24,057 nt of DNA, from the IMG/VR virus record IMGVR_UViG_3300023116_000352, positions 1 through 24,057 of that record; one strand, given 5' to 3'. Numbering within the stretch: the first letter of the stretch is position 1; the number at the start of each line of letters is the position of its first letter. The DNA comes from a virus. Shown here one piece after another: positions 12,355 to 22,601 of the stretch. The notes under the pieces are model-generated. The model saw only the letters and a program-made list of their open reading frames with translations, ran no database searches and was not told the DNA's origin. Both the position numbers and the translations under genes were made by a program.

Positions 12355-12779
12355 TAGAAATTACCTCCATTTAAAAACATCCCTGTTGACGGATGCCTAT
12401 GATCTGCTCTTGAAGCGAGCAGGCTTGTCCCAGCAGAACCTGTATTGGACAACTCAAGAGGAATATCGCTAGAAAACTGAATTGCCGCACCCAAGTTTAA
12501 TGTTGCTGGAGCAGCTACCAAAACTGTTGCTTCGGCGTTTGCAAACGTCACAGCAGTAGCCTGAGCGTTTGTCAAACTCAAAGAAGTTGACTGACCGTTT
12601 ACAACAGAAACCGTTGTGGTTGTGTTATTAGCCACTGAAAGAGTACTTGCATCCCCTGCCCTAATCGATAGTGAAGTCGAATTAGACGGAGTAACAGAAA
12701 CACTAGTTGACTCACTAGTAAAAGTTACATTGCTAGATTCAGCAGGTGTAACTTGAACAGTAGTAGTCTGAGAACTCAT
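12354..12779 (-). CDS. Ser/Thr-rich small virion protein with ADHRHP motif
   Basis: A 141-residue protein. The first about 95 residues are a repetitive beta-prone sequence rich in Thr, Ser and Val (TTTVQVTPAESSNVTFTSES and similar). The end carries PLELSNTGSAGTSLLASRAD then HRHPSTGMFLNGGNF. The 'G.S...SR.DH.HP' pattern is common in phage fibre and baseplate-associated proteins. The C-terminal NGGNF resembles the DGGTF end of the next gene's product. The ATG overlaps the upstream stop (ATGA) and its own stop overlaps the next start (TAATG), so it is tightly coupled to the first long fibre gene. It may be a connector between fibre and particle; this is inference. Confidence 0.72.
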   Translation of the reverse strand: MSSQTTTVQVTPAESSNVTFTSESTSVSVTPSNSTSLSIRAGDASTLSVANNTTTTVSVVNGQSTSLSLTNAQATAVTFANAEATVLVAAPATLNLGAAIQFSSDIPLELSNTGSAGTSLLASRADHRHPSTGMFLNGGNF

Positions 12780-13108
12780 CTCGTAACCTCTGCTGTAACA
12801 GTCACTGTGCCAGACATAATAGTTAGAACCACAGAGCCGTTTGTTTCCTGCAAGTCATACACATATGTTCCAGCAGCAATGTTTGCTGTCTGAGCAGAAG
12901 ATAAACTAAATCTCATTAAACCCGAACTGGCATTAACAATCTCTGTAGTAAAAGTAGCAGAAACATCCGTTGAACCAGCAAACGGTCTAATTTGACCAGC
13001 ATATGTTCTGTCGGTAATATCAATAGCAGTATTTGACGAATCATTCAACGTCACATCATGCGTATAAGTATCACCTTGATAAATAGAAATATTTCTTTCA
13101 GCAGCCAT
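12776..13108 (-). CDS. Small virion protein, BppU-N-like beta-sandwich
   Basis: A 110-residue protein beginning AAERNISIYQGDTYTHDVTL, followed by TDRTYAGQIRPFAGS, SSGLMRFSLSSAQTANIAAG and TYVYDLQETNGSVVLTIMSG, ending in TAEVTR. The order IYQGDTy - diTgrt - aqIR - G..r.sLSa.qTa.i..G.YvYDlq - G.v.vt.eVTR is a well-known small phage protein associated with baseplates and upper fibre attachment. It has no transmembrane or catalytic features. An AGAGGT-type ribosome site precedes the ATG at 13108, and upstream of it lies TGGTATAAT, a candidate promoter for the whole fibre module. It likely acts as an adaptor for the fibres encoded next. Confidence 0.8.
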   Translation of the reverse strand: MAAERNISIYQGDTYTHDVTLNDSSNTAIDITDRTYAGQIRPFAGSTDVSATFTTEIVNASSGLMRFSLSSAQTANIAAGTYVYDLQETNGSVVLTIMSGTVTVTAEVTR

Positions 13109-13125
13109 TCACAAACCTCTATTAA

Positions 13126-13134
13126 ATTATACCA
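13126..13134 (-). promoter_or_regulatory. Extended -10 promoter TGGTATAAT for the fibre module
   Basis: TGG-TATAAT on the minus strand is a perfect extended -10, placed 17 nt before ATG 13108 with an AGAGG ribosome site between. The -35 region (TTATGC at 17-bp spacing) is poor. It would give the adhesin genes their own transcript. Confidence 0.5.
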
Positions 13135-21242: not shown

Positions 21243-21614
21243 ATGATCATTAATCTACCATATGACAATGTTGAAATGATGAAATCACATCATGACAAGA
21301 TGAAGTCTTGGAACGAGAACATGGCCAAGCAGCATGAAGCCGCAGCTCTATGGCATGAGCAGCAGATTGAAGAGCTTGAAAAGGCTATGATTCAGGTTCC
21401 GCTTAACCCAGAGAGCAAGCCTGCTCCCAGCGCAGGTGGTTCTGGTGGTGGCGACACAGGTGAAACTGCATCGTCAACTCCTCCGGTAACACAAGTTCCT
21501 CTTGATCCGGTTAAGAAGGCTGATCTGGTTAGCATCCTTCAAGACCATGCCGCAGAGTATGGTGACTTTGAAAAGTCGATTGAAGATATTGCTGACATGA
21601 TCTTGGGTGAGTGA
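21243..21614 (+). CDS. Coiled-coil protein with Gly/Ser linker, unknown
   Basis: A 123-residue protein. Residues about 8-50 are a helical, probably coiled-coil segment (NVEMMKSHHDKMKSWNENMA, KQHEAAALWHEQQIEELEKA). A Pro/Gly/Ser-rich linker with two VPL(N/D)P boxes follows. A C-terminal helical domain reads KKADLVSILQDHAAEYGDF then EKSIEDIADMIL. AAGGAGATAAAA directly before ATG 21243 fixes the start; longer in-frame versions would overlap the preceding gene. The stop shares its A with the next ATG (TGATG). It lies between the composite Cys protein and a holin-like gene. No family recognised. Confidence 0.78.
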   Translation: MIINLPYDNVEMMKSHHDKMKSWNENMAKQHEAAALWHEQQIEELEKAMIQVPLNPESKPAPSAGGSGGGDTGETASSTPPVTQVPLDPVKKADLVSILQDHAAEYGDFEKSIEDIADMILGE

Positions 21615-21820
21615 TGGATAGCACGGCTCTGTCTGCAATCATTGTTGCATTAATCACAACAATGGGAACAGTTTTAGTAGCTTTATTCAACGTTCTCAGA
21701 AAAGAGAACCGGCAAGATCACAACATTGTTAGAGAAAAAATTGAAGAACTTCGTCAAGATGTAAAAGATGTAGACGACAAATTAGACGGACACATCAACT
21801 GGCATTTAGACGATAAGTGA
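21614..21820 (+). CDS. Holin-like single-pass membrane protein
   Basis: A 68-residue protein. Residues about 5-27 (LSAIIVALITTMGTVLVAL) form one transmembrane helix, followed by a basic RKENR stretch and a charged coiled-coil tail (VREKIEELRQDVKDVDDKLD) ending GHINWHLDDK. This layout matches small phage membrane proteins of the DUF2746 type that occur near lysis genes and are often called holins. No endolysin is seen in the window, so the lysis role is tentative. I prefer ATG 21614 (TGATG coupling) over the GTG one codon earlier. The stop codon TGA is also the TGn of a promoter (21818-21826). Confidence 0.72.
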   Translation: MDSTALSAIIVALITTMGTVLVALFNVLRKENRQDHNIVREKIEELRQDVKDVDDKLDGHINWHLDDK

Positions 21821-21826
21821 TATAAT
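21818..21826 (+). promoter_or_regulatory. Extended -10 promoter TGATATAAT
   Basis: Perfect TGA-TATAAT overlapping the stop of the holin-like gene. A start 7 nt downstream (21833) falls on the first bases of a 16-bp hairpin. No good -35 is seen. Confidence 0.6.
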
Positions 21827-21832
21827 AGGTTT

Positions 21833-21900
21833 GTGACGGACTCTCTGGTTGTAAGTATTTCGTAAGATTATTTATGATGCGGGGGGTCCGTCACATTTTA
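21833..21900 (+). ncRNA. Predicted small hairpin RNA or structured leader
   Basis: Bases 21832-21847 pair with 21880-21895: 10 Watson-Crick pairs (TGTGACGGAC / GTCCGTCACA), then six more with three G-U pairs, closing a 32-nt loop. TTTTATTT follows the 3' arm. With the predicted start at about 21833, the RNA would be about 68 nt with both ends paired. It does not fit a tRNA: there is no T-arm or CCA. The alternative is a structured 5' leader for the next gene, whose ATG lies 12 nt after the hairpin and has no ribosome site. Confidence 0.55.
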
Positions 21901-21907
21901 TTTGATC

Positions 21908-22234
21908 ATGAAGTTTAAATTTTACCCCGTCGTAGAACTTTTTTGGAAAGATCACTACAGCCTCGGTGATGAGTGGTATGATGAAATTCCGGAGGCCGAT
22001 GTTCGCATACTTTCAGCGGTAGGATACCTTGTTGGAGAAGACGAAGATTATTACTACGTATCTTGTAATTATGATTTTGGGAACGACCAGTTTTCTGCTG
22101 GGACTGCTGTACTCAAAAATTGTATTGTCAAGAGAAGGGTCTTGAGTAGAGGAAAATTTGACTATGATCAGTTTAGTGGAAAGAGAAAGACTCGTAAAAA
22201 TCGTATACCAAAACCACAGCCAGACGAATCCTGA
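21908..22234 (+). CDS. Unknown phage protein
   Basis: A 108-residue protein: KFKFYPVVELFWKDHYSLGD, EWYDEIPEADVRILSAVGYL, VGEDEDYYYVSCNYDFGND, QFSAGTAVLKNCIVKRRVLS, and a basic end (GKRKTRKNRIPKPQPDES). The middle looks like a small beta-barrel of a type ('sVGylv.Edddyy.vs......g..aG.avlk.cI..r') I have met in phage genomes without function. ATG 21908 has no ribosome site; a TTG two codons earlier is possible. The last 71 nt overlap the next gene in another frame. Confidence 0.65.
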   Translation: MKFKFYPVVELFWKDHYSLGDEWYDEIPEADVRILSAVGYLVGEDEDYYYVSCNYDFGNDQFSAGTAVLKNCIVKRRVLSRGKFDYDQFSGKRKTRKNRIPKPQPDES

Positions 22235-22601
22235 ACGAACCAGAGCGGGCTGCTGTGTGGCAACTGGGTATTACAACGAAAAGTCTCTCCCAGAAATTTG
22301 CGCTTACTATCAAGTATCTCAAGATGATGGATTGTACTGGTGGGAATACTTTGGGTTTAATAGCGAACTTGCAAAGCCCGCTAAACGTAAAAAACGAAAA
22401 CAATCTGATATCTTTGCTTTCCTTAAAGAAAACTCCGGCAAAAAGATTACAGTAAAGCAACTAGTTGAAGAATGCTCGATTAGCTCTCCAACTGCTTATA
22501 AGTTTATCAACGAAAACCCTGGCTGGTTTAAAAAAGTTAAAAGAGGAGTTTATGAGGTGGTGAATGCAGATGAAGAAAGAAGAAAAGCAAAAACTAAGTA
22601 A
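22164..22601 (+). CDS. Putative winged-helix DNA-binding regulator
   Basis: A 145-residue protein. The N-terminal half (RTRAGCCVATGYYNEKSLPE, ICAYYQVSQDDGLYWWEYFG) is of unknown type. A basic linker KPAKRKKRKQ follows. The C-terminal part, DIFAFLKENSGKKITVKQLV then EECSISSPTAYKFINENPGW and FKKVKRGVYEVVN, reads as helix, helix-turn-helix (VKQLVEECSISSPTAYKFIN) and a beta-wing. A transcription regulator is a reasonable guess. The start is unclear: ATG 22164 has GAGG 12 nt upstream, while TTG 22158 has it about 5 nt upstream. Either way it overlaps the previous gene by at least 71 nt. It ends 38 nt into the next gene. Confidence 0.65.
   Translation: MISLVERERLVKIVYQNHSQTNPERTRAGCCVATGYYNEKSLPEICAYYQVSQDDGLYWWEYFGFNSELAKPAKRKKRKQSDIFAFLKENSGKKITVKQLVEECSISSPTAYKFINENPGWFKKVKRGVYEVVNADEERRKAKTK

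Follow-up and report, generated by a model that had tools for sequence, protein, structure and literature searches.

The window analysed here is a stretch of DNA of 24,057 nucleotides, positions 1 to 24,057 of the IMG/VR virus record IMGVR_UViG_3300023116_000352. On its + strand, a gene encoding a 69-aa membrane-like protein (21611-21820; PHROG 32850, E-value 4.5e-9) forms the end of the thyX operon. This gene adjoins a conserved RNA hairpin (21832-21895, +) in nearly all relatives and is not part of the RNA. An extended -10 element, TGATATAAT (21818-21826, +), precedes the hairpin, and the TGA within it doubles as the stop codon of the 69-aa gene. After the hairpin come a U-rich tail, TTTTATTT (21896-21903, +; 7 T in 8), an open reading frame of 108 aa counted from an ATG at 21908 (21908-22234, +) and a winged-helix gene (22164-22601, +), the second of the unit. 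A sequence-only reading of the window had called attention to a promoter motif upstream of a 16-bp stem, to a U-rich tail after its 3' arm and to an ATG without a ribosome site. Each of these lies where that reading placed it, and in the clade of the window the tail is present and no Shine-Dalgarno sequence stands before the ATG. A Shine-Dalgarno sequence hidden in the G-rich 3' arm was considered and discarded since its spacing to the ATG (about 14-22 nt) is too long.

The hairpin, which is defined by its fold, by two covariance models (R1 and R2) and by covariation, is 64 nt long and contains 28 pairs. Its predicted folding energy is -35.4 kcal/mol, compared with -14.35 +/- 2.53 kcal/mol for shuffled sequences (z -8.3; none of 200 shuffles as good). 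From the base upward, the fold consists of a lower helix of 16 pairs (5' arm 21832-21847, 3' arm 21880-21895, both +), a bulged G at 21879, an upper helix of 10 pairs (5' arm 21848-21857, 3' arm 21869-21878, both +), a UU/U internal loop, two pairs and a GUAA tetraloop. The outer 10 pairs of the lower helix are perfect Watson-Crick pairs and the others are G-U-rich. The stem had thus been drawn correctly from the letters, but the 32-nt loop described above it is not open, being occupied by the upper helix, the internal loop, the two pairs and the GNRA tetraloop. Likewise, the GTAAG direct repeat (21851-21855 and 21862-21866) that had been listed as a feature of its own is incidental, because one copy is helix and the other is the tetraloop with its closing base, and because most relatives differ there, carrying GAAAG or GCAAG. 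The remark that the RNA is not a tRNA holds, as ARAGORN and Rfam show no cloverleaf. Rfam release 15 gave no family at the gathering score for the hairpin or the window and returned tRNAs only on six relatives, while neither the region nor the hairpin matched anything among annotated phage records. Judged by sequence comparison, the hairpin is a real, previously uncatalogued RNA element of phages of water-dwelling actinobacteria.

Relatives of the hairpin were collected from metagenomic contigs. An IMG/VR scan with the downstream 108-aa protein found 15 loci, each with the -10 element and the hairpin directly before the gene; over two scans the 108-aa gene was found at 16 IMG/VR loci and the hairpin was present at every one. 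The lower stems differ among the 15 loci (GTGACGGACTCT, GTGACAACCCCC, TGGGGAACCCCC and others), and the opposite arm changes to match. Three of 16 IMG/VR pattern matches (L037, L044 and L048) were put down to chance. Model R1, built on the first relatives, scored 70-93 bits against 14-24 bits for an opposite-strand model, and loci reached through a 95-aa gene about 1.7 kb upstream yielded more distant members, outside R1, at 41-47 bits; the tool itself describes the E-values of such models as rough. When an alignment of the 95-aa gene was used to reach further loci, model R2 gave 46 matches there, nearly all in sequences from which the model had not been built; the exceptions are L108, L109 and L124, whose contigs are those of L086, L087 and L090. 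In all, the IMG/VR scans and the two models provide 51 distinct homologues in actinophage contigs, with hairpins of about 56-66 nt. Each genome has one hairpin locus, in records of up to 107 kb, with no second copy elsewhere.

The homologues show that the stems are maintained by pairing. Among the first 12 distinct relatives, double changes occur at 11 of 28 pairs, compared with a mean of 4.5 in shuffles and 0-3 for slid pairings, and none of 500 shuffles scored as high. The later set comprises 34 distinct sequences, and in it both partners have changed without loss of pairing at 25 of 28 pairs (15 of 16 in the lower helix and 8 of 10 in the upper helix). Double-change cells in this set number 274 against a shuffled mean of 86 (0/500 as high); relatedness of the sequences inflates these counts and is not removed by shuffling, but slid controls, which keep the relatedness, still fall far below the observed values. 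The covariation score is 0.843 for the later set, 0.276 for shuffles and 0.09-0.19 for slid pairings. The alignments behind the covariation counts were fitted to the structure, although unconstrained folds of single sequences agree with it. Covariation in relatives, whose absence the sequence-only reading had named as grounds for giving up the element, is therefore clear, and selection for RNA pairing is supported by these comparisons. In addition, the RNA of the + strand is the more stable one in all 51 homologues (mean -34.3 versus -19.0 kcal/mol on the - strand). This asymmetry, together with the many G-U pairs, argues for an RNA rather than a DNA palindrome.

The best conserved part of the hairpin is its tip. 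In the window the tip reads UAUU-UC-GUAA-GA-UUA (21856-21870, +) and comprises the UU/U internal loop, two pairs and the GNRA tetraloop at 21862-21865. Across 49 members the consensus UAUU-NN-GNRA-N'N'-UUA is near-invariant, with very few exceptions, and the loop is GAAA in 35, GUAA in seven, GCAA in five, and GAGA and GUUAA in one each. The two pairs under the tetraloop covary (UC/GA, CC/GG, AC/GU and AG/CU), and in the helices below the tip the sequence is free to vary while pairing is retained. Because the tip is held by sequence rather than by pairing, we infer that it is recognised by a trans-acting factor, probably a protein. The operator hairpin of MS2-type RNA phages, which is bound by coat protein, has an ANYA loop and a bulged A. 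It resembles the element described here in the architecture of a protein-recognised hairpin, with a tetraloop, two pairs, a small bulge or internal loop and a longer stem, and differs in its loop, in its bulged A and in belonging to an RNA phage. A search for the tip sequence in 84,980 bacterial and archaeal genomes gave 12 matches, of which none folds into this hairpin and none is in an actinobacterium; thus no host copy was found that the phage could mimic.

The phages that carry the hairpin are actinophages, to judge from their genes. Their capsid and portal proteins share about 44-53% identity with those of Streptomyces phages of the Stanwilliamsviridae, and WhiB genes are present in 9/9 larger records and, among 14 control genomes, in Corynebacterium only. 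Two Stanwilliamsviridae genomes and DSL-LC01 contain no convincing match to the hairpin, and a match of 19.9 bits in BillNye was treated as chance. An aquatic habitat is assumed for them because of the kinds of IMG/VR sample and the lake origin of DSL-LC01, and in part on general background. Two further features were seen in these records. The ribonucleotide reductase gene at L043:6049-9030 appears to contain an intein, as it has some 350 additional residues whose last two, HN, precede the next C. In the 94-kb record IMGVR_UViG_3300006802_000076 (L062:1-3400), the GC content is about 60% over the first 3 kb and about 40% beyond, possibly a chimeric end, and Rfam gave no RNA family for that region.

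The hairpin occurs in three genomic contexts. In class A (20 sequences, including the window), a gene of the 108-aa protein family lies downstream of it. In class B (seven sequences), the downstream gene encodes a proteasome-like protein (Pfam PF00227), and this gene follows the hairpin directly at L092:3285-3887 and likewise at L115, L116, L153, L161, L164 and L088. Proteasomes occur in actinobacteria, which makes a phage copy of interest. In class C (22 sequences), the 108-aa gene is absent and the winged-helix gene directly follows the hairpin. The stem in this class begins no more than about 10 nt past the upstream stop codon, the -10 element before the stem is missing (a script found it in 1/22), and a separate promoter-like element resembling TGnTAnnnT lies between the hairpin and the gene. 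The proposal that the hairpin is a structured leader specific for the next gene was dropped on these contexts, as class B has an unrelated gene in that position and class C lacks the gene. Because the hairpin occurs with differing next genes, what is conserved is the RNA domain and not one gene.

Taken by itself, the extended -10 motif is not unusual in the window, where three are found and 1.2 are expected. One of these, TGGTATAAT (13126-13134, -), lies just upstream of a 110-aa gene on the minus strand (12776-13108). The element before the hairpin is significant because of its conserved distance of 4-8 nt from the stem rather than because of the rarity of the motif. A gap of 4-8 nt separates the end of a -10 element from the stem in 19/20 class A sequences and in all seven of class B (7/7 on reading and 6/7 by script, as the fold of L153 shifts), compared with 0.8% of random positions. 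A -10 hexamer at conserved spacing from the hairpin, as expected of a sigma-70 type promoter, is thus present in 26/27 class A and B sequences, as well as in G023 and G026, and represents a predicted promoter for which a conserved -35 was not established. The spacing suggests that transcription starts at the base of the stem at 21833 (+), a G that is the seventh base after the -10 and has a pyrimidine before it. Conserved promoter spacing had been expected among relatives. It holds in classes A and B, where the element has a promoter-like -10 of its own and transcription is predicted to begin at the base of the stem, and it does not hold in class C.

Natural rearrangements at the junction bear on which parts belong together. 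In G023 and G026, inserted cassettes separate the hairpin unit from the thyX operon (L167, G023:5500-13500, and L168, G026:23500-28500), with an SDR-like gene further on. Genes resembling cytochrome P450 follow the 69-aa gene in G026, and P450-like and acyl-CoA ligase-like genes follow it in G023, as named by eye from the translations. In both, the -10 element (TGTTATACT, TGATATAAT), the hairpin and the 108-aa and winged-helix genes stay together, 3-4 kb from the 69-aa gene. The -10 element therefore belongs to the unit and is no by-product of the upstream stop codon, since it is kept after the insertions. At L120:7374-7431 a second long hairpin (-35.1 kcal/mol) follows the 69-aa gene; it is of similar size and without a GNRA tip, and the true element lies about 4 kb further on. 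At L091 an ordinary terminator occupies the slot of the hairpin, so the element can be lost and its function is dispensable or replaceable.

The 108-aa protein of the unit has no Pfam match, and its structure model (pLDDT 46) is too poor to use. The protein encoded at 22164-22601, whose gene comes after the hairpin in all three classes, has two domains, helices at the N-terminus and a winged helix at the C-terminus, in a model of fair quality (pLDDT 80). No family assignment above the cut-off was found for it. Comparison of the model with the PDB gave weak matches, none with an E-value below 0.001, and among them are Z-alpha and IclR-type winged helices and, at rank 50, the SECIS-binding domain of SelB. 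The winged-helix protein, encoded near the hairpin, is a possible partner of it and is treated as a lead only.

Several functions can be considered for the hairpin. The strongest rival to the interpretation favoured below, a realistic though lesser prospect, is the trans-acting small RNA of the sequence-only reading, in which a free hairpin of about 70 nt, made from its own promoter (classes A and B) or released by cleavage of the upstream mRNA at its 3' end (class C), serves as a decoy or scaffold to which a protein of the host or the phage binds. The hairpin is untied to any one downstream gene and would be made by different routes, it has a single locus per genome, and the promoter, stem and U-tail form a unit in the window's clade, where TTTTATTT is a possible point of intrinsic termination. 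A U-tract, defined as at least 5 T in 8, follows the stem in 20/22 class C sequences but in only 8/20 of class A and 2/7 of class B. Release as a free RNA consequently fails as a general rule, because the remaining 12 of class A and five of class B have a ribosome site or start codon in its place, with the start codon within about 20 nt, and release from them would need a cut. Additionally, a GNRA loop in a helix is a poor seed for base pairing. DicF-type small RNAs, which also resemble terminators and come from phage-derived genome segments, act by base pairing (PMC12197685), whereas no conserved seed is exposed here. A U-tract also invites the reading that the element is an ordinary intrinsic terminator of the thyX operon, with a GNRA cap that is stable in a merely thermodynamic sense. 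The class C order of stop codon, hairpin, U-tract and promoter-like element is in accord with this, as is the plain terminator in the equivalent slot of L091. Nevertheless, the reading is quite unlikely, as most class A and B members lack the U-tract and have a promoter before the hairpin, the UAUU/UUA tip persists while the stems are rewritten, and no second copy is found elsewhere in the genomes. A somewhat less doubtful idea is that of a processing or stability element, either an RNase III site or a blunt end hairpin that guards the 5' end (classes A and B) or the 3' end (class C) of an mRNA with no tip-binding factor. The double strand of about 26-28 bp and the constant position at an inferred transcript end, with the stem base at the inferred start, are consistent with it, yet neither role needs a conserved tip sequence.

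Phage leaders also contain hairpins that act on transcription in cis, and the nascent hairpin at the beginning of an operon could modify RNA polymerase, either by itself or by way of a protein bound to it, so that the polymerase passes terminators. Lambda boxB is a hairpin of 15 nt in a phage leader that has a GNRA-like cap in the form of a pentaloop, is bound by the N peptide and is accompanied by boxA. It shares the GNRA-like cap with the element described here, whose stem is longer and contains a UU/U internal loop. HK022 putL, a processive antiterminator, is a phage-encoded RNA of about 70 nt that lies directly downstream of a promoter and acts through its structure (PMC9378689), as an element of about 64 nt directly at a promoter might, but putL consists of two stem-loops and a triplex and the element described here is one hairpin of two helices capped by a GNRA loop, and in class C it ends an operon instead of starting one. 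The dfn hairpin of LoaP leaders is likewise a small, protein-bound hairpin of a 5' leader, but it has a UNCG tetraloop, occurs in Bacillus antibiotic operons and works with a NusG paralogue (PMC12691694). No NusG or LoaP partner was found, as no NusG domain was detected in six phage records, and a LoaP supplied by the host is conceivable. Although the hairpin is independent of the first gene and its GNRA-capped tip is a possible protein site, these differences make a cis-acting element of the put, boxB or LoaP type unlikely. Far less probable still is a DNA operator for the winged-helix protein, suggested by the presence of its gene near the hairpin in all classes. The stems conserve pairing and not sequence and contain many G-U pairs, and the idea was rejected on the strand asymmetry found in 51/51 homologues. 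An RNA-based replication origin was also considered; in mycobacterial prophages such origins have been linked to deleted regions of about 400-500 bp and to extrachromosomal prophages (PMC7157519), and it has no support here. The probabilities of these readings overlap, since free RNA, processing and leader functions can coexist.

The interpretation favoured here, held at about even odds, is that the hairpin is an autonomous structured RNA at a transcript end, placed at the junction of the thyX and winged-helix operons, whose tip is recognised and which protects, processes or gates the RNA. In classes A and B, including the window, the promoter would start the RNA at the stem base so that the hairpin forms the 5' end of the transcript. 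In the window, the U-rich tail may let some transcripts stop as a free RNA of about 70 nt, and the remaining transcripts would continue through the 108-aa and winged-helix genes. The hairpin of class C would form the 3' end of the upstream transcript, with a separate promoter after it. Binding at the tip would then protect, process or gate the RNA at the end of the transcript. A mechanism common to both contexts is an assumption, because classes A and B differ enough from class C. A bolder and more tentative version is that the hairpin represents a new phage RNA family whose GNRA-capped tip recruits a specific protein, perhaps the adjacent winged-helix protein, and which has been redeployed as a 5' or a 3' transcript end.

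Phages that infect aquatic actinobacteria have received little attention, and only a few of their structured RNAs have been catalogued. The hairpin RNA occupies one junction in each genome and is present in at least 51 distinct phage sequences, its covariation is very clear for a short hairpin, and natural cassette insertions separate it from its neighbours. It offers an RNA suited to pull-down experiments, a defined tip for mutagenesis and a candidate protein partner, which makes its function directly testable.
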